Source of the DNA: Pegea sp. RAD2-039
Lineage: Eukaryota; Chordata; Thaliacea; Salpida; Salpidae
Length of the DNA: 64,000 nucleotides
Assembly: GCA_034620365.1 (NCBI GenBank)
Contig: JAQGEQ010000363.1
Location: 744,001-808,000, forward strand
Direction of reading: 5' to 3'
In this document: positions 14,243-60,361 of the stretch, one piece after another
Position numbering within the stretch: position 1 is the stretch's first letter
How the letters are laid out: each line of letters opens with the position of its first letter
Notes under the pieces: generated by a model
Database searches by the model: none
The model's input: only the letters and a program-made list of their open reading frames with translations
What the model was told of the DNA's origin: nothing
Position numbers and translations under genes: made by a program

Positions 14243-14261
14243 AGAATAAACAAGTTGTTTA

Positions 14262-14723
14262 ATGAAAATGAAATCTGAAAAAATGTCAGTTTTATTGCCT
14301 CATTTTTGTAGAGGTTTAGTAGTAAAAGGTTTTGGAAGAGGAAGTAAAGAGTTAGGAATTCCCACCGCCAACTTCCCAGAATCTGTTGTTGAAGAGCTAC
14401 CTGATGATATGCCAACTGGAGTCTATTATGGATGGGCTCAAGTAGATAAAGGACAAATCCATAAAATGGTAATGAGCATTGGTTGGAATCCGTTCTATCA
14501 AAACAAGAAAAAGTCGATGGAGACTCATATTTTGAATGAGTTTGATTCTGATTTTTATAATAGTCTATTGGGTGTAATTGTTATAGGTTACATTAGAGAA
14601 GAAAAAAATTATAATTGTTTACAAGATTTGATTGATGATATCAATAATGATATTTCAATAGCTAAAGAAAAGTTAGATGAAGAAAATGCTCAAGCCTTAA
14701 AGCAACATTCCTTCTTTAAATAA
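14262..14723 (+). CDS. RFK: Riboflavin kinase (flavokinase)
   Basis: Phosphorylates riboflavin with ATP to give FMN in the cytosol, the first step to all flavin cofactors. The 153-residue frame is one exon and aligns nearly end to end with animal RFK (about 155-160 aa). It shows PHFCRG at the start, the GFGRGSKELGIPTANF segment carrying the Gly-rich nucleotide loop and the PTAN Mg/ATP motif, PTGVYYGWA, and SIGWNPFYQNKKKS. There is no FAD-synthetase domain, as usual in animals. Three in-frame ATGs lie at 14262, 14268 and 14283; the third gives the length closest to vertebrate RFK, the first is nearest the leader. A splice acceptor (TTCTATTTTTGCAG, AG at 14243-14244) sits 17 bases before the first ATG, suggesting a trans-spliced leader or a 5' UTR intron. 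Confidence 0.96.
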   Translation: MKMKSEKMSVLLPHFCRGLVVKGFGRGSKELGIPTANFPESVVEELPDDMPTGVYYGWAQVDKGQIHKMVMSIGWNPFYQNKKKSMETHILNEFDSDFYNSLLGVIVIGYIREEKNYNCLQDLIDDINNDISIAKEKLDEENAQALKQHSFFK

Positions 14724-16019
14724 GTTTGTAGTGAACTTATAAAATGATAACCTTTCTATAATTTGTTTGTGTTTGAGGTGATGAAATTATCTTTTGGTTG
14801 TTGTACTTTCTGTTTCTTTGATTTTTTCATTTAATTCTATGTTTAAAATCTTTAGTTGGTTTGATAATTTCAGTGATTTTATTAATAAATTTAGATAATA
14901 CTCAACATTTTTAATTGTGTTTATTATTTTTACTAAATTAAAATAACATTTAGTATCTAACAAATAGGTTTAAGTTTAGAGAAGTTATATTTAAACCAAT
15001 ATATAAAATGATTAAAGATTCATTAGTTTTTTATATTAAAATGTTATCTAAAATAATTATTAATCTTATAATTATTTTGTCAATCTTTATAATTTTGAAT
15101 TTTTTTATAATCTGTATATTTTCATATGATAAGTCTCTTCACAAATTTCATCTTTTTTGTGTGATTTTTTACTTTTCTTTTATTCTAATAGAACTTTCAT
15201 TTCATATGATTTAAACAAACTTATTGTTAAAATAAGTCAGTTTTCAAACTTTGTATCAACTTTAGAATTATGTACATGATGATTTTATTTCTTGATCTAC
15301 TTGTATATAGATGATTATAATTTAGTTTGGAAACTATAAATTTTTTTATAAATGGAATTTTTTTAATAACAGTATTTCTTAATAGTCAACTGTCTATCTG
15401 TCGATCAATTTTCATAAATTAGTTAAATTAAAATCCATATAGAAATTAATTTATGTCTTAGATATTTTTTTTGTTAACTAGAAAAAAAATGCTTCTAGCA
15501 AAAAATTATAATTATTTATCTAAAGAAATTTATTGTGATTTTATAAATTTTAAAAGTTGATTATTGTTACTTAATATCTTTAATGTTCAATCATTTCAAT
15601 AGAATATATTTACTATTAGTTTAAAAATTTCCAAAAATATTTAAAATAATTTTATTTAATAATTTGTTCTATGCATAAGTCTAAAAACATGTTTGTATGT
15701 TTTTATGTCCAGGGTTAGGGTTAGTTTTGTTGTTGATGTAAATGAAATAACTTCACTACTTATAAATTTCATGTTAGAACAGGTAAATATGATTTTATTT
15801 AATGAAAATAAACCATAAAAAGTTTTTACTTCATAGATATCATTTTAATATTAATTATTCTGTTCATGAAGCTTCAAATATAATTGTTTATATTTTATGA
15901 CCATAATTTAATGTACAAGTTCTCAATATTATCCGGACTTCTCTAAATTGGAATATTTTTTAATTATGAAAAAAATTGTATCAGTTTTAACCTTAAGTTT
16001 TACAAATTCTCTATGTTAT
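14724..16019. other. Intergenic region between RFK and COQ8A
   Basis: Contains the RFK 3' UTR and A+T-rich spacer. A 68-codon frame at 15008-15214 is hydrophobic but has A+T-driven composition and no family signal. Confidence 0.5.
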
Positions 16020-16050
16020 AGACAAAGAAGCAAAGTAATAAGATTTAAAG

Positions 16051-19000
16051 ATGCAACGCATAAGTGATATCTCTTGTATGATTCAAGGAGCTGCTAAAGT
16101 TGGAAAGACTTCCTTGAAACTTGTTTGTGATGATGTATGCAGTGTTATGAAGAAAAGTAGCATCACCAGTCCTTTTCTGCAGAAGATTGAAATGGTAAAT
16201 GATACTTTGAATGATTGGAAGTTTGTTACAAGTAATATTCATTTTCTTAAATCAATCTGTTTCGTAGTTGTTGCAAAATTTTTTGTAATTATTTTGAAAT
16301 CAAATTTTATTTTATGATTTTTGCATCAAAGAAATGTTGACTTTTTTTATAGGTATGTCAAACAATGCCTAAAACTAATAAACCTGCTGATACTGGCATG
16401 GAACAATCTTGCAAAGACACAAATTCATCTTCTGGTGATTCACCAACTTTCCAACCTAAACGTCAATTTTCTACATTCACAATCCAGTCTCCGAATCAAC
16501 AAATCTTTCAAACTTCCAAACGCTTCCTTCACTTTTCTGTTTCATCAAACGGACTGACAACTGAACAATTAGCTAAACTGGCCCAGCTAAAAAAGGTTCG
16601 ACAAGTTCAAACAGAATCAAGTAAAGAGGAACTTCAAAAGAGTGTGGATAAGATGCAGAAGCAGTTAAACAGTAGAGCTAAAGAGAGAAGAGTCCCATCT
16701 ACAAGAGTTGAAAGACTTGCATCTTTTGGGGGTGGGTAGATCTTTTACAAAACTCATTGTTGAGTTGACTATAGAGATTTATCTTCTAACATTTTAAATA
16801 ATTAGTTTGTTTAATTGTATATAATTTGATTGTTAATTAATTTATAAAAATTGTTTCTAAATTTGGTTGTTGTTTTTTAGGACTAGCAGCAAGTTTAGCT
16901 ATAGGAACTGTTTCTGATGCAACAAAATCTGTTCTAGGTTTTAAAAATCCAGGTTAAAAAATCATTTATAAATTCAATCAAATTACAACAACAAAAGCTG
17001 ATTGAAATTGGTTGTATACTTGTAGATATATAATTGTAAAATTGCTTTTCAGACCAATCAGAGAACCAACTTTCTCATCCTTTACTAAATGAATCAAATA
17101 TGAACAAAATTGTTGAAACTTTGTGTAAAGTTCGTGGGGCTGCTCTTAAGTTGGGACAAATGTTGAGTATTCAAGGTGACTAAGTGATAGCTCATTAATA
17201 ATTTAGATAATTTTTTTTTATGAGTTTGAATAGTTTGTTTTCTAAATTTCATTTCTGATTTGAAATTTGGTTTGTTGTAGATGAATCAGTTATTAATCCC
17301 AAGTTATTAGAAGTTTTTGATCGAGTTAGGCAGAGTGCTGACTTCATGCCTTTTAAGCAGATTGAAGTAAGTTGATATTATCGATTTGTTAAATGTTTTA
17401 TTATATTACTTAAATAGATAAATTGTTTTTTAGATCTCACAAAATTGAAACAGTTTATTTTTCACTTTTAATAATTAGTTGCTTTTTTGAACAGGGAGTT
17501 TTAATCAACGAATTTGGAAGTGAATGGAGAAGCAAGCTAAAAAGTTTTGATGAAAAACCTTTTGCAGCTGCATCAATAGGACAGGTTAAAGATACTTTGA
17601 GCAAATACAATACCACAAAATCAGCGAGGAAATATTATTTAAAAACTTTTGCTGAATGTTACAAACTTCTAAATGTCAAATTGATAAAACCCATATATAA
17701 TCACTCATTTAAAATCATTGATGTTAAAAACTCAAATATTCTCATCAAATGATATTTTCAAAATCTTTAACTTTGTTTGATGTCACAACTAATTTTCAAT
17801 TTTAAAGATTGAAATTGTTTATATTAGGTTCATCGAGCGGTTCTCCATGATGACACTGAAGTTGCGATGAAAATACAATACCCTGGCGTAGCTAACAGCA
17901 TCAACAGTGACATCGACAACCTTGTTACTCTCTTGAAGTTCTGGAACTTCTTTCCTGAACGTGAGATCAGTTGTATGATTCAACAACACCTCGATGCTTT
18001 TAATCTGTCAACTTCTGTCTCATTTATGTTTGTTTCAAAATAAATGAAACATCTTTAATATGAGAAGTAGACTGACTTGTTGGCTGAACCAAATGTTTTC
18101 TGATCTAAAATAGTAGACGTCTCTGAAGTTCTTCTGATTCATTTTTTTTCAACTTTTCAGAATTCTACATCGACAAGTTCATCGATGTCACTAGATCGGA
18201 ACTTGCCTGGGAATGTGATTATGAGAGAGAAGCAAAATACTCCGAGGAGTTTAGGTCTTTACTCTTTTCAATCTCTTTTTCTTCTAAACTGAAAATTATT
18301 TATTGAATCAGACTTCGACTAAACGATGAAGAGATTTACGGAGTCCCTAAAATCTTCAAAGATCTCTGTGGAAAGAGAGTGATCACATCTGAGCTGATTA
18401 CAGGAGTTACTATCGATAAAGTTGCTCAATTAGATCAAGACACACGCAACTATGTGAGTGACGACTTCTTTTTTCTTGAGACTTTTCTTCACTTGATTAT
18501 AATTTTAATCTTCTCAAAATTCACTCTTCTTTGCTCCTCAATTAATCAGATAATTTGGAATTTTTCAAGAAAGCGAATCAGTTGCTAAAATTCGAATTTC
18601 TATGATGACACGTCTTACTACTAATCTCAAATTCACTTTCTTAAAACTTCACGAAAACTGATTTTGACTTCAAATAATCTTCTTGTAAATAAAGGTGTAT
18701 TTGTAGGTCAGTGCGGCAATTTTGCGGTTAGTTTTGCGGGAGCTATTTGAATTCAAAACCATGCAGACTGACCCAAATTGGGCAAACTTTTTCTACAACG
18801 AAAAACAAGCCAAAGTAACTGAAATTTATTTTAACAATCCACTTAATATTTCCAAACTTCTTTGCTTCTCATTTTGTTATAATCCTAATCTTATGGATGC
18901 TGATCTTTTAGTTGTGGCTTCTCGATTTTGGGGCGACAAGAACTTATTCAGATAATTTTGTGGACTCGTACATTGAAGTTGTCAAATCTGCTGCTGATGG

Positions 19001-19477
19001 TGACCGCGAGAAGGTTCTTGACCTTTCGATTACATTAGGTTTTCTCACTGGGTTAGAACCTCAGGTAAATCTGTTTTCATCGATTTTTTCAGTGTAATCA
19101 AAACTATTTATTTATTTTAAAGTTAACTTTTAAATGAAAGTTTTCAATCTTAAAAATACGATCTTTAAACGTAAATATTATCAAATGTGATTCAGGTGAT
19201 GAAAGATGCACATGTAGATGCTATCATGATTCTTGGAGAGCCTTTCGCTACAGAAGGAACATTCGATTTCAAACAACAGAGCACTTCAAATAGAATCATG
19301 AAAATTGTACCGACTTTCCTCAAACATAGATTAACTCCTCCTCCAGAAGAATCATATTCTTTACACCGAAAACTATCAGGAGCTTTTTTGATTAGCACCA
19401 AGTTGAAGGCAGAGTACGCTTGTAAAGCCATGTTTGATGATGTATATCAAAACTATCACAACAAATGCACCACATAG
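16051..19477 (+). CDS. COQ8A: COQ8A/ADCK3-type atypical kinase of ubiquinone synthesis
   Basis: An ABC1/UbiB-family atypical kinase-like ATPase of the mitochondrial inner membrane that supports the coenzyme Q complex. Twelve exons: 16051-16194, 16353-16731, 16881-16952, 17053-17175, 17281-17366, 17495-17584, 17828-17960, 18161-18254, 18312-18453, 18707-18814, 18912-19064, 19196-19477. They join in phase to 601 aa (human COQ8A 647). Hallmarks: [15 protein letters not shown] before a hydrophobic stretch; KxGQ motif at residues 231-234; the Ala-rich AAAS loop at 292-295 in place of a P-loop; VAMK lysine at 313; catalytic QTDPNWANF near 441-449; DFG at 462-464; and a conserved C-terminal [17 protein letters not shown]. 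The N-terminal ~170 residues are divergent. An acceptor (AG 16020-16021) lies 29 bases before the ATG. A candidate poly(A) signal AATAAA is at 19615-19620. Confidence 0.96.
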
Positions 19478-19620
19478 ACAACATTTGAAGATTTTATTCC
19501 TGAAATTTAGCTGTTTTTCTGATTTTATTTTTAGTTTGGTGATTGGTACAACATTATTTTTCTTCAGTTTCTTATTTATTTATCCACTAATAAGTTTTAT
19601 GAAGACATGGAACGAATAAA

Positions 19621-20274
19621 AGTACCTCTCAAACAGACTACTGTCTGTTGCAATGCCGAAAAAAAGTTTCTTATTTACGAACAAATAGTTGCGTTAAATT
19701 AAATAAAGTATTTACTAAAAGAAAACCTACTTCCAATTCATCAACCTGTATATAGGCCGTTTACATTAGATACCAACATTATACTTGAACTAATTAATAG
19801 TATTTTGACTAATCATGTATTACGATAGCTAATAGGTCCGTCTAATCGGTTGAGTGTTATTAGTAGCAGACATAGGAAAACTGATGCTTAGTATATAAGG
19901 AAGCTTACAACTGAACAAGTTGTTTATTGTGTCAATTGACTTAGCAAGCAAACCTTATTGTGCTGCTCTAAAATTCATATTTTTGTCTGACGTAGGTTAA
20001 AAAAAACAGTTCCTTAATCGAAGTTAGCATTATAAACTTTCATCACCTTTAAGTTACCATCGGAAAATAACTATAAATAGTTGCAAATTGCTGAATCATT
20101 AAATTTGAAGAAATTAGTAAGATTTTATTTCTAATTAATTAATTTGAATACTATCTTAAGATTATTGAATATAATCTCAAAAGAAATATATTGATGTTGC
20201 TAACTTATTAGAAAAAATATTAAATATTCATGACATACTCACTATACTAAAAAATACGAATCAATAATAGAATA
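19621..20274. other. Spacer, no gene seen
   Basis: A+T-rich sequence between the COQ8A 3' end and a LINE fragment. No supported feature. Confidence 0.5.
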
Positions 20275-20805
20275 TTTTTATTTATTTCAATAAATGCGAA
20301 GGGGGGTACCTGAAGAGAGCACCTCTCGCTAACACATTCTCACAATTAACATATATTTAGTCAAAAATATAGAAAGTAAAAGATGTAATACATGGTATTT
20401 CGATAGCACTCAAAGCATATAACAGTGAACAATTACATGGAATGTTAATAATATAAAAAAGAGAAAAAAAATCACAGTTTAGAAATGACAATGCTGGCAA
20501 TATTATAACGGTTCAACTTCTTTTTAAACAACACGAGCGAATTCGACATTGCAATGTCTGATGGCAGCTGGTTCCATGTACTAATTGTGCGGTATGAGAA
20601 AAAATTTGCTCTGACCAATGTACCAGGCGATATAGGCTTATTAAGATGTAATGTGTGTCGTCTGAGCTGATATAACTTGAGGGAAGGACTAATGGAAAAC
20701 AAATCATCAAACTGAAGGTGAATTAAATTGTGGATAATTTTAAAAATAAGAATTAAGTCGAATATGAACTTTTGTAGGATTAAAAAATTTAATAGATTCA
20801 AAATG
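20275..20805 (-). mobile_element. 5'-truncated non-LTR retrotransposon (LINE), copy 2
   Basis: The - strand holds an uninterrupted 109-codon end of a reverse transcriptase frame (20801 to 20472). It has the typical C-terminal signature of CR1/jockey-type LINEs: LILIFKIIHNLIHL, then RRHTLHLNKP, NFFSYRTISTWNQLP and LVLFKKKLNRY. A ~200-base 3' UTR follows, ending at the same tail as the other copies. It is clearly related to copy 1 at 11140-11860. The retained frame suggests a fairly recent insertion, but the copy is too truncated to move by itself. Confidence 0.85.
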
Positions 20806-22749
20806 AAAGTAATTAAAAAAATAATATAAAGTTCATTTGAAATTAATTAGTTTAATTCGAAAAGCTTTGTACAAACCTAAGGACGACTCAATAAATGGTT
20901 TAAAGAACTTATTACGTCAAAGAGGAAGTCATTTTTACTTTTTTAAACCTTTTCTCAGAAAAATCTTAAAACATTTTAATGCAACTGCTTCTTTGGATAG
21001 AAAGAGGTGGGTGTAAATTCAAAACTGATAAAACTATACATTTACAAAACTTTCCGATGGTCACCAAATATTAATTATCATTAAAACAAAATGTATATTT
21101 AAGATTACAACAAAACTGAAAGAAAAGTTTCAAAAAAATGCATGATGTACAAGCTGATGCAAAATTTTTAGTTCCTCTAAAACCAAAAGTTTCTGTAAAA
21201 AGGAAAAACTATCATCAAGTACGAACATAAAACCATTTATGGCCTTTTTGCACAACTTTTGCATCTATAAAGAGCTTGATGTTTGTAAGCAAAAGCCTTT
21301 TTGAATTACTAAATATCAGTATTAATTAAACTATGTGGAAAGTGTGTTACTTCCTCTTTTTAAAAGAAACGGTTGATAAATAGACAAACATGGTTAATTT
21401 GAACTTCAGAAATAGTAAAAACGTTGCTAAAATTTGACAAATTTAATAAAAATCTTGCTCTATAATTAAGTGGCGATTTGCATGATTTTACTAGATAGAT
21501 TATAACTTAATCAAAATGGTTTGGTACCAAACTTTTTTACTAATCTATCAATATTTTATTCATTTCAGCCACCAAATAACATCAGATGAAAGACAAAAGA
21601 AACATTATTCAGTTTTTATGCTAATATTCTATTATTATTAATTTTATTCATGCTGACGTAGTGCTGAAACTGTTTTAATCAAGTTAAGATGCTAATAAAG
21701 CTAGAGTTTTTCGCAAAGTATTTCTAAAAATTAATCAGATCTAAACATAAATTTTTAAATGAAAAATATTTGTAAATAAACTCATAGTAGTTGCTCATTA
21801 ATTTTGTAAAAGATAGTAAACTACTCAGTAAAATCTTTATGAAAAAGCTTTTGAGTTAATTTTATATCTTTATTTTGGTAGTAAGTCTTTTATCAAAAAA
21901 TGGAAAATATTTAAGCTTATCGTCTTTGGTGCATTCCCTTATTAGACAATTGTAATAAAAATATATTTTCCAATAAGCAACATTTTATATACATTTTTCA
22001 TGTATCTTATTTTAGAACTATTATAAGCAACTTTCACGGCTAATATATTAATAAATTATTTTAATTACAAATACCTAAATTAGAAAAGATCTTTCTTGAC
22101 CTTTAAATGTTTGTTGGAAATGTACACTAATCACTTTTATCAATAAATAATATTATAAAAAGGTATGAATGGTAACTAATTCAATATTGGGTTATTTTTG
22201 TTTATATAAAAGATTACAAGTTATTTAGTAGGTTTCGAATAGCTATAGATTTATTCTATAAATGTTACTTGATCAATTAAGGACTTTTATTCATTTTAAA
22301 TAAATTTGGATCTTATATTTTTATCAAATTGTATTTTAATTTTAAGTTGATTTTTGATAGAATTATGATTTGCTCATTATTTAAGATTTCAGATAAAATG
22401 TATCAATATTCAATCTTTTAAATATTAAGAATAAACTAGATATATGTTTTTAATTACTTATTTATTTAATTGAAGTAATTGTTCAATTGAAGTTACAAAA
22501 CTATTGCTCATTTATTTATTTTATTAGTATAATATGTCTTATAAACAGTTTTTTTTATAGTTCTTCTTTTTTATCTTTTACAAACTGATACATTTAATGT
22601 TTTAAATCAATTGTCATAAAAGTAATTTCAAAACAATATCTTTTTCATATCAAGATTTATTTAACTATTTTTAAATATTTACTTAATTAAAAATTATATC
22701 TTTAGAACCAATGAATGTCTTTAATCATAATTTTTTATTTTTATTTTAC
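20806..22749. other. Intergenic, nothing recognised
   Basis: Long A+T-rich stretch with no open frame or repeat copy identified. It ends in the acceptor tract (TTTTATTTTACAG) of the TMEM203 exon. Confidence 0.5.
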
Positions 22750-22775
22750 AGTTATGATCAATATTTTAAAGGATA

Positions 22776-23420
22776 ATGTTGACAGATTTAGTTAAAATAA
22801 CTGGACTTTCAATTTTTGAAATATTGATGCAAACTTTAGCTTTAATTTGTTTCTTATTCACTTTATCTTTAAAAATTGAAAATATTGTTGACTTAAGCTG
22901 GTGGAAAGTATTTTCTCCTTTATTCATCACTGATGCCTTGACAGTTTATTTCAGTTTTATTGTATTTATTCGTTCTTATCATAGCACTTCTATTAAGAAA
23001 GATGCTTATAAACGAGGGGTATGGAATTTGATAACGCTTGCCCTGCTTTCCACATTTGAAGTTAGAAGATTTATTTTATCTTATTTTAAATCTCCAGCAA
23101 TTTCATTTACTTTAAATTAGTAGTTGAATCATTTTTTAAACATTAATTATTTGCAAAAAATGTTTGATTTTGTTATTTGACATTTAGAACTGATAATTTG
23201 TTTAAGCATTTAAACAAATCATTTGTTTTAATTAAACTATTTATCAAATACTGATGATGATTAGTTTTGAAAAATCAAATAATTAAAAAATATTTATTTT
23301 TTTTAGCTGCTTCTTTGTTACAACCTACATGACTCTAAGAAGCCTCGTCTACTTTTGGTTCTCTCCCCTTTCCTTGTTGCTTGGATCTTTTTATTTTTAA
23401 GAATGTGCAAAATTGAATAA
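22776..23420 (+). CDS. TMEM203: TMEM203, ER four-helix membrane protein
   Basis: A small endoplasmic-reticulum membrane protein linked in vertebrates to calcium handling and STING signalling. Exon 1 is 22776-23060 (95 codons). The donor is GAA|GTTAGA, and exon 2 starts after TTTTTTTTAG at 23307 and ends in TAA at 23420, giving 132 aa (human 136). Diagnostic are SWWKVFSPLFITDALTVYF in the first half and, across the junction, STFE|LLLCYNLHDSKK matching the vertebrate FEMLLCQKL region. Reading straight through the donor gives an unrelated short tail, so splicing is required. Four hydrophobic segments are visible. The acceptor AG at 22750-22751 lies 24 bases before the ATG. An upstream ATG at 22754 opens a 13-codon frame overlapping the true start. 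Confidence 0.9.
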
Positions 23421-23754
23421 TGGAAGATGAAACTGACAAAACACTCCATCTAGACCAAAGCTTTGTAAAAGCACATTTTTTAAATTCAGTCTTATCTACC
23501 TGCAAACTGTCAGAGATACTTTATACCAACAAGGACTTTGATATTAAAAGATGCACATTTAATATCATTTGAAAGAACAAGATTATCAGTGGATTTAAAA
23601 ATAATCCTAACAAACAGTTATTTTTTATTTTTGTTGTTGTTAATTTGACGTTTTTACTTATTTTTGTTAATCAATTATTATAAATAAAAGCTTATTTGAC
23701 AAAAAAGTTTTAGTTTTTGTAGTTTTTTCGTTTATTTAAATAATTTTTTTTCAA

Positions 23755-24391
23755 ATGGATCAACTTATTCTCGATCCTAAGTTCCGAAGACTTACTGCTG
23801 TGTTCTTTGGGATAGCAGCAACTGGAACTGCAATTCTAAATCATTTGTACAATCAATCTTCAAGTTAGTAAAAATCAAAGTTTAATCTTTCAAGTTGCTG
23901 ATGCTTTTATATTTTAGAGGAACATAATAACGCAGAATATAGTCAAAATGCGTTTCTACTTTTAAAAGAAGATAAAAAAGCTGTACAGCTGCTAGGGGGG
24001 GAACCTGTAAAGTTAAAAATGTTGGATCTTGCAGATGTGGAGGTTACACCCCTGAAAGCTAAAGTGATCTTCTTCCTGATCCATAATTAGTGAATTTAAT
24101 CTCATTTTTTCTTAAAGATTAAACTGCGAGTTAAAGGAAATACAAGAAGTGGACATTTATACACGATGTCAAGCAGAGAAGATGAAACAAAGTTGGTTGC
24201 TGAAAATTTCATTGATTTTATTTTCTTGTAAAAATCGAAACTAATGATCAATCCACAGAAACTGGCAGCTTCAGTACGCGATAATGAGAGTAGAAACAAG
24301 AATAAAGTCCTGGAACTATTGGCTATTCCCTGAAGAAGGATTAGACAGCAAAGACACAATTGAAGATCTCCATCTAGGTCCGACGGCTTGA
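23755..24391 (+). CDS. COA1: Cytochrome c oxidase assembly factor COA1 homologue
   Basis: A mitochondrial inner-membrane assembly factor for respiratory complexes I and IV, of the COA1/TIM21 fold. Exons 23755-23863, 23918-24063, 24118-24191 and 24259-24391 join in phase to 153 aa (human 146). A single membrane helix lies near residues 12-32 (AVFFGIAATGTAIL). The C-terminal domain has the family pattern: KLRVKGNTRSGHLYTMSS followed by NWQLQYAIMRVETR. The first and third introns are short (54 and 67 bases). The stop TGA at 24389-24391 lies inside the last exon of TADA1 on the other strand. The acceptor TTTTTGTAG (AG 23721-23722) is 32 bases before the ATG, and the TMEM203 poly(A) signal AATAAA (23683-23688) is only ~65 bases upstream, an operon-like spacing. 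Confidence 0.82.
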
Positions 24392-27232: not shown

Positions 27233-27252
27233 TATTATTGTTTATATAAGCT

Positions 27253-32561: not shown

Positions 32562-32563
32562 AG

Positions 32564-41036: not shown

Positions 41037-41045
41037 TTTTCAACT

Positions 41046-44898: not shown

Positions 44899-44914
44899 TT
44901 TAAAAAAGTTCACT

Positions 44915-47441: not shown

Positions 47442-47464
47442 TATTAAAACTCAAAAATATGTAG

Positions 47465-47937
47465 CTGAATTGGAATCAAACATTTACTGTGATAGCTTAG
47501 TTAATATCTGTAATGTACAACGTAAAAAATCGAAAAATATCCTTAACAAAGCAAAGTTTTTGTCTAATTTTGAAGTATACTGTTGACTAATAACTAAGTA
47601 ATTAAAATATAAGATTATAAATAATTTCTTCCTAAGTAATGTTTTTCATACACTTCAAAAAAGTTTCTAATAAGTTCCTTAGATGAACTTTAAACAAAAG
47701 TAATACTATGAATCTGCTCTTATATAATAATAATTAATAATATTAATTAATAATAATTATATAATAATAGTTATATAACATTGATGAGACTCGAATGACA
47801 GAGTTACAAATTGCTCAGATTAAAAACACATGAAAAAAGAATTCGGTGTTATCTCCTCTTTAACTCGCGTATTTGATGTGTGTATGAACTCACGTGCCGA
47901 ATCTTCGTCATTATAAAAATTTTTGTAACATTTTTTT
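47465..47937. other. Spacer with A/T simple repeat
   Basis: Contains a degenerate AATAAT/TTAAT simple repeat at about 47726-47778. No gene seen. Confidence 0.5.
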
Positions 47938-48012: not shown

Positions 48013-48441
48013 AACAGATAGAAGATATCATCTTCTGGTTATGATTGATTAGTAATATTAGCTTTTGCTACTTAGGCAGTACATATACTAATTTGTTTTA
48101 ACTATTTTTCCCGCTTTTTTATTTAAGAAATAGATTTCATATTGTGCAAGGAAAAGTATGTAAGTATTAAATTGAAAATATTGAAATATTCTTTTAATCT
48201 AAATTTATTTTTTTTAATCTGTTCAATAATACATGATAAAGCGACAGAAAAACACAAGCCATCCTGTTGTGTAATTTTTTGTTGGTATGTCTGATTATAT
48301 TTATCAAATCAAAAAATTGATTAAATTTGATATTTATGGGTTTGCTTTGAGTATTATCTCTTAATCATTCTTTCTCTAAAGTGTCGAACTAGTAAAATTA
48401 CCTTTTAAATGTCATTGGTTTATTAGAAAAATAATGATTTT

Positions 48442-48614
48442 TTAGCTGATCCTCATAAATTGAAACAGTTGATGAGAGTATATTTCTGTCTGTATATTAG
48501 CTTTCATTATAAAAAGGGTGCTGGACCATTCATATATCTCTTTTCTTTTTCCGAAACAACCACAAGGCAGCGATACGTTAGCCACAGGTGTAAGAAAAGT
48601 AAAACAATTATCAC
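48442..48614 (-). CDS. Ambiguous terminal exon candidate
   Basis: On the - strand an acceptor ATTTTCTTTCAG is followed by 56 open codons and TAA. The peptide (DNCFTFLTPVANVSLPCGCF...) has three cysteines near its start. The + strand over the same bases also opens with an ATG at 48518 and reaches a donor ACAG|GTGTAAG, so strand and reality are both unsure. No family is recognised. Confidence 0.25.
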
Positions 48615-48745
48615 CTGAAAGAAAATTTGTAAATAAGTTACAAGTTTTTATCACTTTTTCTAAATTGCTATATTTTAAAAACATTTATCATATTTACAGA
48701 AGTATAATAAAAATTAAACTTTTTACAATTAAAGCCAATTTCTGA

Positions 48746-50019: not shown

Positions 50020-50025
50020 AGTTAA

Positions 50026-53000
50026 ATGAAGACTGAAATGCCATGTGCTTCTAGTAACATGAATGGAATAACTAGTACTATTCTACCACCTGATGAATTT
50101 ACTCAGGAGATGGCTGTAGACTGTCCTATTGCTTATACTATGAGCGATAAAACGTTGATGACCAGACATCCCAGTCCGTACCCTCCTGAGGATGACCCTC
50201 CCCCAACCCCTTTAGATGGCTCAGTGGTCAACGCCCAGCTGAGAAAGTCAGCTCGAAATATTGCGGTTTGTATTTTTCTAAAAACTAACAAAATAAATCT
50301 TTATAATTCCCCTAATTTTAGTTTTTTTATACTTTTAATTTGATAATATTTCAAAAATATTAACAAATTTGTAATAAATATAATATTTAGATAACTTATT
50401 ATAAATAATAGATAAAACATTTATGTTCTTTTATATCTTATATTCTTTTTTTGTCAAATCAAATTGTAAAGTTTTTTAATTATAAAGATATTTCATTTTA
50501 AGTTTAACAAAAAAAACTTTGAAGTTGAAGAAGGGGTTGTTTGATCAAACATTTTCATGAAGTTCTATTTGTTTATTTAAATTAAAAAATTTTATTTTCA
50601 AATGTCTGAATAAGATTTATTATTATAGTCTGTAGCTGAAGCAGCAGCTAACCTACCTCAACCTCCTATGAATTTCACTAGAATACATAACTTAAGAGAA
50701 TCTATAAGAAGACAGGAAGAATTGAAAGCACAAAATCAGAAATTAAAAGAAGGAATGAACAAAGAAGAAAGTTTTTTAAGACTTGAGAGGTAGTTGATAC
50801 TATTCTATGTTTACTTGTGGATAATTTAGTGATTTTTATAGAGTAAAGAATAACAAATACAAAGATAATAAACAACGAAATCTACAAGGAGTTGAAAATG
50901 TCGGATATGTTGATGAAGATAATCAAAACGCAGTTCAAGAAAGTATTTAATTTTTCTAAAATTTTCAAGATTTGTGATAATTTTTTAAATTTAATATTTA
51001 CCAGAATTTCTCCATAAAACTTATTTGAAGGTCTTTTGCAGGTATAGAAGATATGATGACTTTATTAAACACCGTCAGTCAGAATATCACTGATGAATCG
51101 TTGATTGATGATCTTGTGTTTGTGAAGAGTCTTGTTCAACAAGGAAGTTTCCATGTTAGTCCTTCGAAACTATTCCACCAATTTCTCACAATAAATTGAT
51201 TTTCTCAACTCTGTAGGAAGCTTTGAGCTTGCATCATGTATTAGTCAGCAGCACAACTTCCCAAACATCAGACTCTCTTCCTATATGTCCTGAGACGTTG
51301 AGTCTGAAGCCGCTATCTGACGAGGTAACAACTTTAATCAAACACTCGCCACTTGATGACATCTTCTCGCAGGTCGGCAAGGAGTTACAATTCTGTCATT
51401 TAGATGAAGCTAATGAATTGAGCAACATCCTCAAATCATCTACTCTTCAGGTTTCCTACTTCCTTCTAGTTGTCGTCGTCACACTCGGGTAACTTTGAAC
51501 AATTTCTAACAGAGCATGATGGGAACGCATGATACAGTCGCTCAAAACACAGTTTCAGCAAGCAAAAGTCTCGACTGTTTGCTCGAAACTCCTCCGCCAA
51601 AAATACCCAAATCTCCACAAGAAGACGAAATTGTCTTAAAGTACTCCGAAATCAGCGATAAACCCGTTCGTGTAGTAACCATCAACAAAACAAATGAAGC
51701 GTTGGTGAGTCTTTCTCCTTATTCCCTACTAATCACAATCTGACCACTTGATGGTGATAGGGAGCGACTGTGAAATGTGAAGAAGATCGAGTGATGATTG
51801 GACGTGTCGTAAGTGGAGGTGCTCTTCAGAGGAGCGGTTTGATCCGGGAGGGAGATGAGATCTTAGAAGTAAATGGAAGACAAGTAAAAGGATTAGATGT
51901 CAATCAAGTCGGTGACATGATCGCGGCTTTGAATGGTGATCTTGTCTTTGTTCTTGCTTCTCCATCTCAACCGGAGCTACAGACCACTGTCCCTCAACAC
52001 TCTAACAATGAAGTCATCAACGTAGTGGTCAGTGTCCTGTCCATGTGACCCACATTTAATCGTCTTATACAGAAACACGTGCGCGCGTTATTCGACTACG
52101 ACGCGTTTGATGACGCCTACCTACCATGCCGCGAACTTGGATTGTCCTTCCAGAAAGGTGAAGTTCTTAGGATCATGTCCACAGATGATGAAGATTGGTG
52201 GCAAGCTCATCACGATGCTGATGACGACACACATCTCACACTTGCCGGTCTTATTCCATCACATCGCTTTCAAATGAGGTCAGTGGTCACCATCATCTGG
52301 TCACTACTTTACTGTCTACATTCAGGAGGGAAGAGGCCCGCCTTGCTATGATGAGGGACACTCAGGTAGACGAAGTGGTCGTGAAAAGTTCCTTGTTTTG
52401 TCGCCACAAGAAGAAGAAAACATCCAAAGTGTCCACGCCAATCATCGAAGGTACTTATCCCTTTCAAGACTACGTGACCTTGACTTGTCCCCTGTTCATC
52501 TCAGATGAGATTGCCACTTACGAGGACATGGCCCTTTACCATCAACCTGAGGACAAGAAGCGGCCTATTGTGCTAATCGGACCAGCTAATGTGGGCAGGG
52601 CTGAGCTACGGCAACGATTAGTAGACAATGACAGCGAACGATTTGTCCGGCCCGTACCACGTGGGTTACATTGTGACCAGCCTGACTCGTTGTCATGACG
52701 ACGTCGTTGTATAGATACGAGCCGAGCAAAGAAGTCAAACGAGAATAATGGTGACCAGTACCACTTTGTGACCAGGGACACCTTCATGCAGATGAATAGT
52801 GATGGACAGTTCCTGGAACAGGCAACTTATCAGAAAGAGTTTTATGGGACTTCAATTCCCTGCATCCAGAATCTGATTCTTGGAGGCAAGATCTGCATCC
52901 TAAATCTTCATGCGGAGGTAGAATTTCGTTGAGATGTTGTCACTTGTGTGTGATCCGTTGATCTTTGCAGAGTCTTCCACTTCTCAGCAACACATCTTTG

Positions 53001-53516
53001 ATGCCTTACATCATCTTTATATCACCTCCACCTCTCGAAAAGTTGCGATTAAATACTGCTCGTGAAAGGAAGCAAGTCAAGGTGAGTGCTGGTTGTTACT
53101 GGTCCACTAGTGGTTGTTACTGGTCCACTAGTGGTTGTTACTGGTCCACTAGTGGTTGTTACTGGTCCACTGATGGTTGTTACTGGTCCACTAGTGGTTG
53201 TTACTGGTCCACTGATGGTTGTTACTGGTCCACTAGTGGTTGTTACTGGTCCACTGACGGTTGTTACTGGTCCACTGATAGTTGTTGCTGGTCCACTAGT
53301 GGTTGTTACTGGTCCACTAATGGTTGTTGCTGATTACAGGAAGATGAATTACGAGAAATTATCGACGCCGCTCGTGAAATGGAGATGAAATTCGCGCAAT
53401 ATTTTGATGAAACCATCCGTAACGTCGATTTAGATCGTTCTTATGCTGAACTATTACGACTAATCAACAAATTAGACACCGAGCCACAATGGGTACCAGT
53501 CCGTTGGCTTGACTGA
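50026..53516 (+). CDS. PALS1: PALS1/MPP5 (Stardust) polarity MAGUK scaffold
   Basis: Scaffold of the apical Crumbs complex, binding Crumbs and PATJ at junctions. Thirteen exons (50026-50265, 50629-50789, 50842-50942, 51042-51154, 51217-51450, 51513-51704, 51761-52027, 52073-52278, 52326-52450, 52505-52660, 52715-52917, 52971-53081, 53340-53516) give 761 aa (human 675). Domains in order: divergent N-terminus, two L27 (about 170-225 and 250-300, ending [15 protein letters not shown]), PDZ about 336-420 ([19 protein letters not shown]), SH3 437-505 ([22 protein letters not shown]), hook with an RHKKKKTSK basic run, guanylate-kinase-like domain about 555-755. The GuK P-loop reads [14 protein letters not shown], without the GKS/T of active kinases, as in other PALS1. 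The C-terminus [14 protein letters not shown] matches vertebrate PALS1 closely. The acceptor lies 4 bases before the ATG. Confidence 0.96.
53091..53339 (+). repeat. 21-bp minisatellite filling the last PALS1 intron
   Basis: Eleven head-to-tail 21-bp units, consensus GGTTGTTACTGGTCCACTAG plus T, occupy 53091-53321. A partial twelfth unit (53322-53339) runs into the acceptor TGATTACAG. Units vary mainly at the last three bases (AGT, GAT, GAC, AAT). Apart from the GTGAGTGCT donor, the whole 258-base intron is this array. Confidence 0.97.
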
Positions 53517-56245
53517 AGCAACTACAAGTCTTGATATGCAGTTATCAACTTCATCTTGCTTTCTAACCAATTCCCTCTCACCAAGCCACTTGTTGTTGTC
53601 TGACCATGTGACTTACTTTTTCGAAACTTTTTTAATCTTGCCTAGCTGCTCTTTCTGAACGATCTATCCTTTGTCACGTGACTTCTTGTATTTATTAATG
53701 TTTATTTTTATAATTTTGTATTAACAGTCACCAAATCTGACCTTGAAACACCAAAACCCTCCCGCCACCTTGTACACTTTTTAATCTTAAATCATTCGAA
53801 TTTTTGCTTCATATAAAAACTAAATCGTTTTTTTTTTGCTTTTTGTTTTGATTTCTTTCAACGCCGTCGTTTTCATCACATATTTTTCAAGCAACACTTT
53901 CCACTTCCTCATTTTCTGCATCACTTACTTCTACTTGGGCTCCAAAATTCCTCCCATTTCTTCCTCATCATTTGTGATTACTTATTTACTAATATCTAAC
54001 GATCAAACCACTATCACCTTACACTGCAAGTGGTTCAGCATACACGGGGCTACTTCCAACTACTCACAGTTGACTTTTTGCATCTTTTTGATGACACTCA
54101 TTCATTCTTCATCCTTATTATCAATAAAACGTCTGGAAATGATTCTAGAATCTAAAAACTTCAACAACAAACAATTTTGTTGGTTTTCTTCTCTGTAAAC
54201 ACCAACAACCTTCTGTAAATGCTTTTTTGTTTGTTTATCTGATGCCAGGGGACTCATTGTAACATCTTGTGATGCGGTACATCAGCTGATCTTGTTGAGG
54301 AATTTTTTAACTGAGTTGCTGATGTAATCTGTTTAAAAATAAATTCCTTTTTTTTTCAGCAACTTTGTTTCTACTAAAACTTCATTTTATTTTGTTCATT
54401 TCAAATTCATGTGCTTTAAATTTAGGCAAATAAACCATTTATAAAAATTTATTGAAGATGAGAAATTCTTCTTTTAAGTAAGTTATTTGAAGAATTTTTC
54501 AAAGAGCTTTCAACCAAACCAATATTTTCTTAGTTCCAAACAACATTTTTATTTATCTTCGCTAAAACTGATTTTCTCTTTAGTGCTTCACTTTATTTTT
54601 TTATACTCAGCACGAATTAAGAAGTAAAAAGTCAACATGAAAAAGTTGCTCATTTTTGCCAGCTCGAAAATACCTAAGATAGTTTCGGCATCTAGACAAT
54701 TCATCTTTAGTTCAAGATAAATATTTTATACTTCAATTTAAGTTCGAATTTAGTTCTGCTCTTATTTGCAGGTTTTCTGTCATTACTTTGCACTTGAAAT
54801 ACTTTCATTATAAAACCAACAAGTTTTCTTGGTATTGAATTTTCTTAATTCTTCAATAATTTCTAAAATTTAAGTTTTACATTTAAGTGGAATGCCCAAT
54901 GAAGGAATTGCAGCTAAAGGATTTTACTTCATTGCAAGTAATCGGTTGAATAAAGCTCTGTGGTTTTAGTTTAGTAAAAAAACAAGTTTAAATCTTTCAA
55001 CCTTTTATGAAGACCCAATATGTTGACATTAATATAGAATTAATCATTTGTTCACAATAGTTCGCTAACAGTAAAAATAAGAATATCTCAGTTAACAAGT
55101 TGTTCATCTCCAATATATATTTTGTGAATCAAATTATCAGTTTAAAAAACATTGTAAATATTTTTCCACACCAAAAACAAGTTTTATAAAAAAACATTTT
55201 GGTATAGCGTTATTTTGATCTTTAATAATAGAATGTTTAACAATTTTATCTTCTATTACAAGACTTTTTAATAAATTATTAAAACAGTTTTAAAAATTAT
55301 AAAAAAATCTAAAATTATTCAAATAAGCAACAAAAATGATGATAATAATTTAAAGATGTGAAAAATGATTTGACTAAAGGTTTAAAGATATTAGAATAAT
55401 TATCGGACTCTAATTAGTTCAAATACTGAATTTATTCTCTAACATTTTTATATTTCATACATAATACTTTAAATCTTCTATTTGCCATTGTTCCTTCTTG
55501 TATTTTGAGTTACTATTTCAAAAGGATACTTCCCTTAATCAATAATCTTCAAATATTAAAGACTTAAAATCGTTAAGATCTATTTTCTATAGAAAAAGAT
55601 ATTATTAAAATATTAATTTTACTTTGGTTGGTAATTTTAAAAATCTAGATAACTGTATAATTTTCAGAAAGGTTGTGCACAAAAATCAGGTAGAAGATGT
55701 TATCTTGCAGTTACACCAAATTTTTTTAGTTTTATCTACAACAAACCGTATTATCTGATATCCAGTTGCTACTTAATATTCTTTTTTTACAATTTAGTAT
55801 TGTTTTCAATAAAACATTTTTCAATTATGGAAAATAACTCCTCTTAAGAAAAATTCTACTATGTCAGCTCTTATAACTTTTTTTTGCAGAAAATGGTAGA
55901 TTTGTTTAACAATTGTAGTTTGTCAAGATTTCTTTCCATTTATATCATTAAAATATTACAATTTGTTGATTGAATCTTCATTCTATTATTTTCATATACT
56001 GTTTAAAAATGAATAAGTCTTAGAGAAAGTTCCTGTTTAATTAATTTAACTCATTTATAAACAACATCTTTTATAGACTAATTTTTTTGTTTGTTTTTTA
56101 CTTATGAAAGCTTTCGTTTTACAGCTTCATTGAAATTATTTTTTCAATTTGAGACATTAGATTTCTCCGATTTCAGTGTCTTTTTACTGTCATGTTGCCT
56201 TGATTTTAATAATTTATTATTATACCAATAAAAATTGAACATACA
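53517..56245. other. PALS1 3' UTR and spacer
   Basis: An AATAAA at about 54343 may end the PALS1 transcript. The 120-codon frame at 53836-54198 has no family signal and lies in presumed UTR. No other gene seen. Confidence 0.45.
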
Positions 56246-57054
56246 TTAGAATCTCAGCAATGCTATCATCAAACAAAATATTACTATACAAATGTTGGTT
56301 ACTTTACAAGCTAAATCATCAGCACTGTTGCAAAAATCTGAAAAAAGAATCAAATAGTTTAAAAAACTTGAAAAAGTTGTTAAAAAACTTTTTGTACTAA
56401 TCTTACAAAACAAACAATTATAAATAAATTAAACAAACAAAAAAGCTTAAGCTATAAAAAGTTTGTTTACTTATTTACAACCTGCAAAACAAACTGATCT
56501 TCCCTTGTCCGCACAACTCCTATGAGCAAGTCCAAGTACTTCTATTATAAGATACAAACTGATTGAAACTTACGTAAAAGTTTGGAACAAATTAATTTCA
56601 TCAAGTCAAATGTTTTAAACAAATGAGTACCTTGACTGTAAAAACAGCCCTGTCCGAACTCACATTCTTTTTCATAACTAGATTTAAGTGAGCATGCAAC
56701 CATTCTTATTGGGCATTCATAACACTTGAACGGTGTTGTTCTTTCTGTCGTTGCAAGTGTCGCCGGTACTGTTGTTGCTTTTCCATTTATCACAATTCCT
56801 TGAAAATAGATTTTCAAATTGTGATTTTTTTGAGGATGTTAGCTTAATCTTAAAGCATTAGGAGAAGTTTGTAAAAAGGTATACTTTCCTTCATTATCAA
56901 TTTTTAATTATTATTCTCAACTATCTTTAAGAAAAACAATTTTTGTACTAGCACTGGACAATTTTTGAAAAATAAAACTGAAATATTAAGAAGCTTCAAG
57001 AAACAAAAATTCACCTGGTATCAGAAGAATGTAGAAAAATAAAGCAGAACACAT
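56246..57054 (-). CDS. Ly6/uPAR (three-finger) GPI-anchored protein, gene A
   Basis: Four exons (57054-57015, 56798-56631, 56541-56482, 56337-56246), all joined in phase 1, give 119 aa. Order: signal peptide MCSALFFYILLIP; a short Thr-rich linker; an LU domain opening KCYECPIRMVAC, with ECEFGQGCFYS, HRSCAD, SVC and the closing FCNSADD (the canonical C-N end); then a hydrophobic C-terminus ending LMIALLRF, typical of a GPI-anchor signal. Eight domain cysteines are visible plus one after. Such proteins sit on the outer membrane leaflet and often modulate receptors; the ligand is unknown. It is a tandem paralogue of the gene at 57584-58498 with identical exon phases. Confidence 0.8.
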
Positions 57055-57060
57055 TTTTAA

Positions 57061-57583
57061 AGATTACTAGTCTCATTTATCAAAATTCTTAATAGATTTT
57101 TACAATCATCTAAACAAACAAAATCACTTTATTTACTTCTAATAGTATTTATTTATTTATAATAGATAAAAACAGGAATAATACCACTAATGAACACAAA
57201 CATATTTTACTAATTATTGAAAATAAACGATATCTGAAAACATTAAAAAAATTTCATGTTTTTCATCAGAACATTTGGATTCTGTAAACAAACATGTAAT
57301 TATTAGAAAAATATTGAAACTTTCTTATTTTCAATACGAATAAGAGACATAAATGTAATTAATTTAATTTCTAAGTTTGAGTCGATTTATTCAATTTGCA
57401 AAACTTACGATATAACTTCAAAAGAAGTCTTTTAATACAAACATGTTGCAATGAAAGTTTATTTTGGGTTAGTATTTTCAAAATAAAAAAAAACATATTT
57501 AAATACTATAAGAAATAAATAAATATTATTTATTACATTTAAATCAGAAGCATTTTATTTTTTGTCAACTTGTAGGAGCAAAT
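57061..57583. other. Spacer between the Ly6 genes
   Basis: About 520 A+T-rich bases with no supported exon or RNA feature. Confidence 0.5.
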
Positions 57584-58498
57584 TCAGATTAGTAAATAAA
57601 TAGTAATAGCAAAAAAAAGATAGATTGAACCAAAATTCACTTTTTGGGAATCAGCGGCATCGTTACATAAATCTGAAAACAAAATTTATTTCAAACTATA
57701 ATTAATATAGACACAAAAAACAAATTAGTAATTTGTAAGCATACTTTCAGCATTAAAACTGACATTCACTATATTCTAATATATGTAATGATATAAGTAA
57801 AGGTTAAAGTAATTAGCTCAAATCAAAAATTGTTAATAGAAGATCACAATAGTTAAGTAAACCTACGTGTATCACAATACCAGTCATCAACATCGCCACA
57901 TCTTCTAAGAGCCAGTCCTAAATCTTCTGCAAATTACCAATTTTCTATATTCAGTTAAACAATTTAATATTTATTCAAACTTATAACAAATTAAATCATT
58001 TTGAATACAATAAAAACAGTTTACCAATAGACTGAGAACACCCTTGAGAAGTTGAACAATTTGTTTGAATACTTTCGCCTACAAAACATGGTACTCCACC
58101 TACTGGACACTCATAACAGAAAATTGTCGCTCCTATATAAATAGGTAAAATATTTCATATATCATGTGATAAATACTATTTTTTATCTAACAAAAAATTA
58201 ATCGTTAAGAAATAAGTATTTTTCATAATACCATCAATAAAATCTACAATTTACTGATAAGCTCTCAATTAATGCCTGCTAAATAAAATTCAAACTGCGC
58301 AGATTGAAATTTATCTCTTAAACATTTAAAAAACCGATTTAATTTAAGAAAAAATATTTTCAATTGCAAAAAGTTAATTACATTTAATGATAATATCTTT
58401 GAAAAAGTGAAATGTTTACCAAGTTTAATCATTGTTAGTAGTAGAAATAAATGTAACTTTACATTTGAAATTTTACATCTTTTATCAATTTGAAACAT
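57584..58498 (-). CDS. Ly6/uPAR (three-finger) GPI-anchored protein, gene B
   Basis: Four exons (58498-58420, 58132-58025, 57926-57867, 57672-57584), phases 1-1-1, give 111 aa. A signal peptide (hydrophobic core LHLFLLLTMI) leads into an LU domain: IFCYECPVGGVPC, TNCSTSQGCSQS, LALRRCGDVDDWYC and the closing HLCNDAADS. A hydrophobic tail (IYLFFAITIYLLI) marks a likely GPI anchor. The eight-cysteine spacing parallels gene A, and exon 3 (ExLGLAxRxC) is the best conserved. The start at 58498 is preferred because an acceptor (AG 58511-58512) lies 12 bases upstream; an ATG further 5' is also in frame. Function is unknown beyond the family. Confidence 0.82.
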
Positions 58499-58513
58499 AT
58501 TTAAATAAAACTG

Positions 58514-59723
58514 GTTAAACGTTCTGATATTCATCACAAAAAGAAATTGTTTGAACTTTTATAGTGAGCAAGCTTAATGTTTATGTAATAAGCTTTTGCT
58601 ACTATAGCAACGCACAGCTGGACATCTTCTGATTACTGAGATGGAACAGCTCTTGAAACGTTCTTGCCATGATTACAAAGTTCATGGGTTTTTATTGAGT
58701 AGAGACTAAATCAAATATTATTTAGAATAAGTTTGTCGTTTATTTTTATTCTATTGCTCGACATTTATTCTACTGATAAATAAGTTAGCCTATACTAATT
58801 ACAGAATATATCAAAGCCACAAAATCAAATGTTGATGCTCACTTAAATAAAATAATTATAAAAAATAAAGAAACATATTTGTTCATATAATCTACCTCTG
58901 AAAATACATCTAGAAGTGATTTAGAGCTTACCAGAACAAGTTTGTAGTCGATTTTATAACGATGAAAAATCATAAGTCTGCTTACAAGAAGAATGTTGGC
59001 AAACTTTATCAGATGTTGGTACAGTTCAAAATATGATGTGATAACTAAATATTCCCTTATTTAACCAACTCTTTTTGAATTTGAATAAAGAAAAATTTAG
59101 ATCTGTTGCAGATACCACAAGACACAATCCAACCGTTATCATTACAAACATTTGCGAAGATTGAAAAATATTTCGCTAACCTTTATTATAGTAAAAGTTG
59201 TTAGATTATCTTTTAGGTATCTATTAGAAATAAAATTGTTTACACAGAATATATCTTTCTACAAAAACTAGTGAAATATTAAAGTGTCAGAGTTGTTGCT
59301 TACATTCAACTAGCTAGATTCAAGCATCTAACGTAGCTGACGTAAACTGAAATATAGATTTTATACAAAAGTAGTTTTACGTTCTACAATCTTAACTTGA
59401 TAGTATCACTATTGTTTATCTTTCTATTTTTATCATTAAAACTTGAATTCTTAGACATAAGCTGTAATAGAATCTTCTTGTTTGAAAAATACTGAAAGGT
59501 AAAAGTTTAGTTTTAATTTTTAATGGTCAATTTACTATTTATTTACTGGTAGTCATCTTTCTGATTAATTGACAAATGAAATTAAAAAAAGTAGAAGTGA
59601 AACAACTATTTATAAAGCGAAGCAGGGATAAGGGTGTCAAAATAGACAAAAATGCATCAATATAAAATATTTAATGAATTGAAAGCCGTAGAAAGAGAGA
59701 TGTAAGTATATATCTGGAAAGCT
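58514..59723. other. Spacer, nothing recognised
   Basis: Between Ly6 gene B and elongin B. A lone donor-like site near 58931 was not developed into an exon. Confidence 0.45.
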
Positions 59724-60327
59724 CTACGGCTGTTCAACAACATCAGCTGATTCGTGAGTCTTCATCACATCCGGAAGTTCCGGGGGTGCGGAATAATCGC
59801 TGATATCAAACTTTTCATATCCATCTAAAATTTCAAGTAATTAGATGATGCTGTTGATGGTTTTTGAATAATGATTGAGATTTATTAGATGAAAGAACAA
59901 ACCTCCTTCTCGGTAAACTAGTTTAAGGCATGCTGGCAAATGTGCTTTAGCATTGGTTGGGTTTAATCCGTTGGCAGAAAGTGTTAACTTCTCTTCCAAA
60001 AGCTAAATAATTAAAAATAAAAGAAACTTTTTCTAACATAATTGAATATATCTCAATTATAATTATAACCAAGAAGGTGATTGTCTACTTACTTTGTTTG
60101 TGTCCATAAGAAATAGAGAAAACTCATCAGGAGACTTTTTTATTATTCCTTCAAGAACTTTTTTTAACTGCATCACAGTAGCTGTATCCTTTAAGTCCAA
60201 AAATATTGTTGTTGTTGCTCGTCGGATACATAAATACACATTCTATATAAAAGGATTTACATTAGCAATAATCATAAATTTGTTAAGATTTTTCATAAAT
60301 CCTAAAATTTAAAACTTTTACCTCCAT
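59724..60327 (-). CDS. ELOB: Elongin B, ubiquitin-like adaptor
   Basis: A ubiquitin-like partner of elongin C in elongin A transcription complexes and in Cullin2/5 (VHL, SOCS-box) ubiquitin ligases. Four exons (60327-60322, 60242-60093, 60002-59903, 59824-59724) give 118 aa, exactly the human length. Exon 1 codes only Met-Glu. Conserved: the opening MENVYLCIRRATTTIF, the ubiquitin-like LKKVLEGIIKKSPDEFSL, LLEEKLTL, and the C-terminal SAPPELPDVMK, which is nearly identical to human SSPPELPDVMK. A strong acceptor (CTTTTTCAG, AG 60360-60361) lies 32 bases before the ATG. Confidence 0.96.
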
Positions 60328-60361
60328 ATTGGCAAATTCCAAAAGGTTTAAAACAAGGTCT

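Follow-up and report, generated by a model that had tools for sequence, protein, structure and literature searches.

Acceptor-like sites near gene starts, a run of closely spaced genes and a candidate leader RNA point to probable spliced-leader trans-splicing of part of the genes in the salp Pegea

Do the splice acceptor-like AGs that lie shortly upstream of start codons in a 64,000-nt segment of the Pegea sp. RAD2-039 genome mark sites where one short leader is joined to unrelated messenger RNAs (mRNAs)? An earlier note on this segment (hereafter, the window: positions 744001-808000 of contig 21, JAQGEQ010000363.1, in an assembly of 105.7 Mb and 387 contigs) had named such an AG in front of 11 genes and had read the pattern as a signature of spliced-leader (SL) trans-splicing. 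The present analysis of these sites, of the flanking genes and of small RNA genes elsewhere in the genome leans slightly towards the view that SL trans-splicing is used on part of the genes in Pegea. The acceptors alone fit introns in 5' untranslated regions (UTRs) as well; it is a compact run of genes with an internal acceptor, TRAPPC2L-CLPB-PRPF4, together with a putative Sm-class small RNA encoded on contig 8, that shifts the balance towards SL trans-splicing, short of proof.

The window is AT-rich, with 22-35% G+C in 4-kb steps. A Pfam search with ten proteins or protein pieces from the window and its flanks identifies RFK (Flavokinase, 3.7e-36), TRAPPC3 (TRAPP, 1.3e-41), a vinculin relative (Vinculin, 2.8e-35) and COA1 (Coa1, 7.8e-8), agrees with the name of EMC6 and, through the zinc-finger types, with that of ZMAT5, and gives a related family for TMEM203. 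The ADAM10 and PALS1 pieces and the start of PRPF4 have no Pfam match. The names of COQ8A, ELOB, the Ly6 genes and a coiled-coil gene are labels of the earlier note, assigned from sequence alone.

All 11 AGs that had been named are present at their places and on their strands. Because an AG often lies near an ATG in DNA this rich in A and T, a position matrix was built from 49 internal acceptors (11 from COQ8A, 3 from COA1, 12 from PALS1, 3 from ELOB, 5 from the Ly6 genes and 15 from ADAM10), the introns being called by eye from the reading frame and GT-AG boundaries, with only the sequence as a basis. The median matrix score is 6.0 for these acceptors (leave-one-out) versus -0.1 for the 6,642 AGs on both strands of the window; for the named AGs, it is 4.3. 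The p value of a site compares the best-scoring AG within 35 nt upstream of the ATG with that of 1,296 intergenic ATGs. In window coordinates, the named sites are:

14243..14244, plus strand: RFK acceptor AG, first ATG 17 nt downstream; score 9.9, p = 0.006
16020..16021, plus strand: COQ8A acceptor-like AG, ATG 29 nt downstream; score 4.3, p = 0.23
22750..22751, plus strand: TMEM203 acceptor AG, likely ATG 24 nt downstream; score 8.6, p = 0.013
23721..23722, plus strand: COA1 weak acceptor-like AG, ATG 32 nt downstream; score 2.7, p = 0.38
27251..27252, minus strand: TRAPPC3 acceptor AG, ATG 18 nt downstream; score 9.3, p = 0.011
41044..41045, minus strand: ADAM10 weak acceptor-like AG, ATG 7 nt downstream; score 2.0
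44913..44914, minus strand: coiled-coil gene acceptor-like AG, proposed ATG 14 nt downstream; score 4.9, p = 0.19
47465..47466, minus strand: vinculin relative acceptor-like AG, ATG 23 nt downstream; score 3.9, p = 0.26
50020..50021, plus strand: PALS1 AG, ATG 4 nt downstream; score 0.7, p = 0.57
58511..58512, minus strand: Ly6 B named AG; score 1.5
60360..60361, minus strand: ELOB acceptor-like AG, ATG 32 nt downstream; score 4.8, p = 0.19

The sites of RFK, TMEM203 and TRAPPC3 are excellent (p from 0.006 to 0.013), and the RFK acceptor scores at least as high as 92% of the 49 internal acceptors. The likely start of TMEM203 (MLTDL...) is the one 24 nt past the AG; the ATG 2 nt past it opens a short out-of-frame open reading frame (ORF). 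The sites of COQ8A, the coiled-coil gene, the vinculin relative and ELOB are acceptor-like but singly not significant (p from 0.19 to 0.26). The vinculin relative has a stronger AG (9.4) 66 nt upstream of its ATG. For the coiled-coil gene, the frame that starts at the proposed ATG (window 44898-44797, minus strand, by eye) ends after 33 codons, so that this start and the acceptor preceding it are doubtful. COA1, ADAM10 and PALS1 are not above background (p = 0.38, 0.34 and 0.57, respectively); the ADAM10 value belongs to a different AG, the top one within 35 nt (3.1 at -35), and the PALS1 AG is probably not a real acceptor. The AG named for Ly6 B is poor, and a better one is found 13 bases farther upstream (7.1 at -25, p = 0.046). 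For Ly6 A, in line with the earlier note, none of the AGs within 35 nt is a good acceptor. TADA1, likewise described there as lacking a clear site, is in none of the counts.

Against the same 1,296 intergenic ATGs, the named-gene starts taken together, which had been preselected by the earlier note, yield p = 3.6e-4 (Fisher) and p = 3.3e-4 (Mann-Whitney) for the best AG within 35 nt; in seven windows farther upstream of these 11 starts, p ranges from 0.058 to 0.875. In 90 kb of flanking sequence on contig 21, used as a replication set, seven starts were judged clear, namely, those of ATG2, TRAPPC2L, CLPB, PRPF4, GTDC1, EMC6 and a receptor (GPCR1, with a sub-threshold 7tm_1 match). For the first five, the upstream sequences had been inspected ahead of the scoring; the start of PRPF4 was chosen by eye. 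With 2,062 ATGs as background, these seven starts give a Fisher p of 0.013 at 35 nt, and at 70 nt p = 0.0011 (Fisher) and 0.004 (Mann-Whitney). Good sites within 35 nt precede CLPB (8.7), EMC6 (9.4) and PRPF4 (6.3); those of ATG2 (8.4) and the receptor (8.0) lie farther out, at -40 and -54, and GTDC1 has none. When the 11 named genes, Ly6 A, ZMAT5 and the seven outside genes are pooled, a score of at least 6.0 within 35 nt is reached in 8 of the 20 starts versus 10.3% of background ATGs (p = 0.0005), and a score of at least 4.2 in 11 of the 20 versus a background of 0.232 (p = 0.0021), with a Mann-Whitney p of 0.00046. Across seven windows between -36 and -335, Mann-Whitney p lies between 0.245 and 0.99; the only marginal upstream count is at -144..-179 (5 of 20 at 6.0 or more, p = 0.0475, uncorrected), and at -72..-107 it is 0 of 20. 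Thus, the excess over chance stands (8-11 of 20 starts versus about 2-5 expected), but not the claim that almost every gene has such a site: the near-ATG acceptor signal is genuine in a subset of the genes. Since near-ATG acceptors are also expected from 5' UTR introns, this signal is not specific to SL trans-splicing.

Just outside the window, contig 21 carries a compact run of three minus-strand genes, TRAPPC2L (Pfam Sedlin_N, 9e-31), CLPB (AAA_2, 3e-52, and ankyrin repeats) and PRPF4 (PRP4 motif, 2e-12, in the gene body). The ATG of CLPB is 53 nt past the TRAPPC2L stop, and the sequence between the two genes contains TTGTAAACTTCTTTCTACAG (score 8.7), the AG of which ends 30 nt past the stop, leaving 23 nt to the ATG. 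PRPF4 begins 214 nt past the CLPB stop (hand-counted), and its acceptor-like site, 196 nt past that stop, precedes the ATG by 18 nt. An AATAAA is located about 64 nt before this site (also hand-counted). The close spacing of TRAPPC2L and CLPB resembles that of operons resolved by SL trans-splicing, such as the chaetognath RpS14-PCNA operon, in which, according to extracts of the source, three bases separate the polyadenylation site from the acceptor (PMC2481426). A scan that looked for neighbouring ORFs at short distance on one strand, filtered by codon score, returned mostly exons of single genes and was discarded; given that it missed TRAPPC2L-CLPB, it is uninformative on how common such runs are.

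The earlier note had suggested a search of the assembly for an SL RNA gene. The spacer of 5S ribosomal DNA (rDNA) is a common site for SL genes; in four 5S copies with their spacers on contig 1, inspected by eye, no leader-donor-Sm layout was seen, Rfam identifies only 5S, and this location was set aside. Partial or altered rDNA copies were observed on contigs 125, 1 and 278, in addition to a more complete copy on contig 27; one of them comes after a satellite close to the contig 1 end. An 18S stretch was also read; COX1 was looked for and not found. The U1 and U2 genes, with 19 genome matches each (one U1 match is below the cut-off), share the element CCCACAAACACWAAACTT, located some 58 nt upstream of the RNA; this element also precedes genes for U3, U4, U5, U6, U8, U11, RNase MRP and tRNA-Sec. 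The pattern MCCRCAAAYNNNAARMT occurs at 499 genomic places versus 34 for a reversed control pattern. One hundred of these places were listed, and 40 places of about 410 bases each were read, 39 of them from that list and one from the scan by spacing discussed below. Rfam names 21 of the 40 (six U3, five U5, four U6, one each of U4, U8, U11, RNase MRP and tRNA-Sec, and one small nucleolar RNA). About 400 of the 499 places are outside the list, so that a better SL RNA may exist. Two unnamed RNA families form clusters behind the promoter element on contig 60, with further places on contigs 36 and 254, and may account for much of these remaining places; one is a near-perfect hairpin (z = -6.6) similar to a microRNA precursor, and the other has a 26-nt 5' part that ends in GTG/GTAAGG (here and below, the slash marks the putative splice junction). 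No Sm site was seen in either family, and both were set aside as SL RNAs.

Two of the unnamed promoter places contain the contig-8 RNA, RTGATTACTGMGAAGTATATCATCGAACACATTTAR/GTATCKTAATTTTGGAGGATTGCTAAATGCAGTCC. A genome search with 23 nt of its putative leader and up to three mismatches finds five places, all exact, versus two for the reversed control; the five copies are arranged in tandem at 18-46 kb of contig 8, on the same strand. If the RNA start follows the U1/U2 promoter spacing, the leader is 36 nt long and the RNA about 76 nt. The leader lacks an ATG and has TTTAG at its 3' end; its junction with the donor reads AG/GT in four of the five copies and AA/GT in the copy at 18 kb. The Sm site, AATTTTGG, is flanked by two predicted hairpins, of which the 5' one, within the leader, appears to be capped by a GNRA loop (GCGA in four copies, GAGA in one). 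As judged from sequence and predicted fold, this candidate shows the five parts expected of an SL RNA gene, namely, a leader, a GT donor, an Sm site, a hairpin and a promoter of the small nuclear RNA (snRNA) type, but the donor is weak. In an alignment of the five copies that takes in the flanks (378 columns), the mean identity is 96%; more than the RNA was thus duplicated, and conservation says little. No occurrence of the leader string was found in the literature searched. The suggested search for an SL RNA gene thus yields a five-copy candidate with a leader, a GT and an Sm site, but its role is tentative, and on balance it is rather unlikely to be the SL donor. Similarly, it is rather unlikely that GTGATTACTGCGAAGTATATCATCGAACACATTTAG is an undescribed leader carried by a 76-nt Sm RNA with a donor 7 nt from the Sm site and a GNRA hairpin in the leader, which would resolve compact operons and cap a large share of the mRNAs.

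Under the SL trans-splicing scheme, the pre-mRNA would lose its 5' part (outron) and gain, at an acceptor some 10-35 nt before the ATG, a short leader donated by another small RNA, and we infer that this leader would be common to the near-ATG acceptors. Trans-splicing would also release the individual downstream mRNAs of the TRAPPC2L-CLPB-PRPF4 run, and the leader might be supplied by the five-copy contig-8 RNA. Several lines of evidence weigh against this scheme and are considered here along with the rival explanations. With respect to the small RNA, a query that joined 16 known leaders (14 taken from the 30 consensus leaders in PMC3795323, Table 1, and two others; the dinoflagellate leader, 14 euglenozoan leaders and one nematode leader were omitted) has no match in the genome at E up to 10, although an empty result of this kind is uninformative without a positive control. 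As leaders differ from phylum to phylum according to extracts of the same source, likeness to known leaders is not a required SL feature. A scan for the promoter element followed by a GGT donor and a TTTTG Sm motif at the usual spacing produced nine matches versus six for the control, that is, the chance level, and was rejected; it missed the contig-8 RNA because of the short donor-to-Sm distance in that RNA.

Whether or not SL trans-splicing occurs in Pegea, the contig-8 RNA is rather likely to be some other Sm-class RNA (SmY-like, U7-like or unknown). Its copy number of five, against 19 matches each for U1 and U2, is below the usual, although not defining, level for serving many mRNAs, and the one unit that was read also contains a C2H2 zinc-finger gene, along with retroelement-like ORF pieces. 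The donor matches CAGGTAAGT at 6 of 9 positions (4 of 9 in one copy) and lies only 7 nt before the Sm site, compared with a SLIDR default of 20-60 nt. The leader has no sixth match genome-wide at up to three mismatches and no remnants elsewhere, in contrast to Ciona, where SL pseudogenes are rife (both from extracts of PMC7986045). The fold is only modestly better than those of shuffled sequences (z = -2.2 and -1.6). Nematode SmY RNAs, which are not known outside nematodes, are short Sm-class RNAs with two hairpins around the Sm site; the contig-8 RNA resembles them in all these respects but reaches no Rfam gathering score. The lack of an Rfam family at gathering score, together with relaxed Rfam searches with three of the five copies that produced chance-level matches (best overlapping match, E 1.7) or none, argues against another Sm-class identity, as do the AG/GT upstream of a canonical Sm site in most copies and the leader without an ATG.

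The acceptors could also belong to cis-spliced 5' UTR introns, the last acceptor of which falls near the ATG, with CLPB expressed via alternative splicing of a first exon shared with TRAPPC2L; this explanation, the main rival, is possible but less likely. The genome is intron-rich, with 15, 11 and 12 introns read by eye in ADAM10, COQ8A and PALS1, respectively, which suits 5' UTR introns, and 9 of the 20 starts score below 4.2, as expected if such introns are present in part of the genes; furthermore, the leader remains putative. To the same side of the balance against SL trans-splicing belong the Mann-Whitney p of 0.13 obtained at 35 nt when the seven outside starts are taken alone, the gaps of at least roughly 0.5 kb (by reading) that separate the remaining same-strand neighbours of the window, and TRAPPC2L itself, the first gene of the run, which has no AG within 35 nt and one scoring 4.8 at -37. 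However, the CLPB acceptor is inside the 53-nt gap, so that a cis donor would have to be located in or beyond TRAPPC2L, which speaks against ordinary 5' UTR introns. Finally, it is improbable that most of the named AGs are chance occurrences in T-rich, AT-rich DNA, supplemented by a few true UTR introns and amplified by a small sample: in half of the 1,296 intergenic ATGs, the best AG in the 35 nt upstream does score about 1.5 or higher, and COA1, ADAM10, PALS1, GTDC1, GPCR1, Ly6 A and TRAPPC2L are unremarkable at this distance, but the excess over the 20 starts, flat upstream bar one marginal count, and its partial replication in the outside starts argue against such an origin.

Two observations on gene architecture are of separate interest. 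GTDC1 (Pfam QTMAN_N; contig 21:855742-857494, that is, 111742-113494 from the window start) is located within an apparent intron of ZMAT5, on the same strand (exon calls by eye), with an ATG that falls 6 nt inside the donor of ZMAT5, AG/GTTAGAATG. A GTAAGT near the GTDC1 end could be spliced to the last ZMAT5 exon, in a different frame, so that the two genes may have a common 3' end. In addition, a tandem repeat of ggttgttactggtccacta-like units fills one of the PALS1 introns (window 53080-53340).

SL trans-splicing is patchily distributed across animals, with unrelated leaders, and its single versus multiple origin is debated. The phenomenon is already known, and Pegea would be a further instance; the compact run and the candidate SL RNA add a data point on its distribution. 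The candidate was found through the common snRNA promoter rather than through reads, which suggests a route for genomes without transcriptomes. Extracts of the literature report SL trans-splicing in flatworms, bdelloid rotifers, nematodes, tunicates, cnidarians and copepods, as well as in ctenophores (Hormiphora, PMC8527503), chaetognaths (PMC2481426) and a glass sponge (PMC10282587). In the rotifer Brachionus, expressed sequence tags are reported to lack a leader (PMC1925144).

Compared with these systems, the contig-8 leader, with its 36 nt, has the length of flatworm consensus leaders (36-37 nt), and at least one flatworm leader in PMC3795323, Table 1, by our reading opens with a self-complementary stretch, as the contig-8 leader does; flatworms also have operons (extracts of PMC12582326). 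In contrast to TTTAG in the contig-8 leader, four flatworm consensus leaders end in ATG, and none of the four matched the genome. In Hydra vulgaris, leaders of 24 and 46 nt come from SL RNAs of 80 and 107 nt, a length similar to that of the contig-8 RNA, with an Sm site like AAUUUUGA (extracts of PMC7986045). Hydra differs in that the contig-8 donor-to-Sm distance is below the 10-35 nt of the SLIDR setting for this species (same extracts), and the two Cnidaria consensus leaders had no match. Ciona intestinalis, a tunicate, has a 16-nt leader and a 46-nt SL RNA encoded, according to the same extracts, by a family of at least 670 gene copies, versus five copies and a 36-nt leader on contig 8. 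Nevertheless, the Ciona SL RNA is very short and has an Sm motif near the donor (search range 2-25 nt, PMC7986045), like the contig-8 RNA, and extracts of PMC2481426 describe Ciona operons with short gaps, like those of the TRAPPC2L-CLPB-PRPF4 run.

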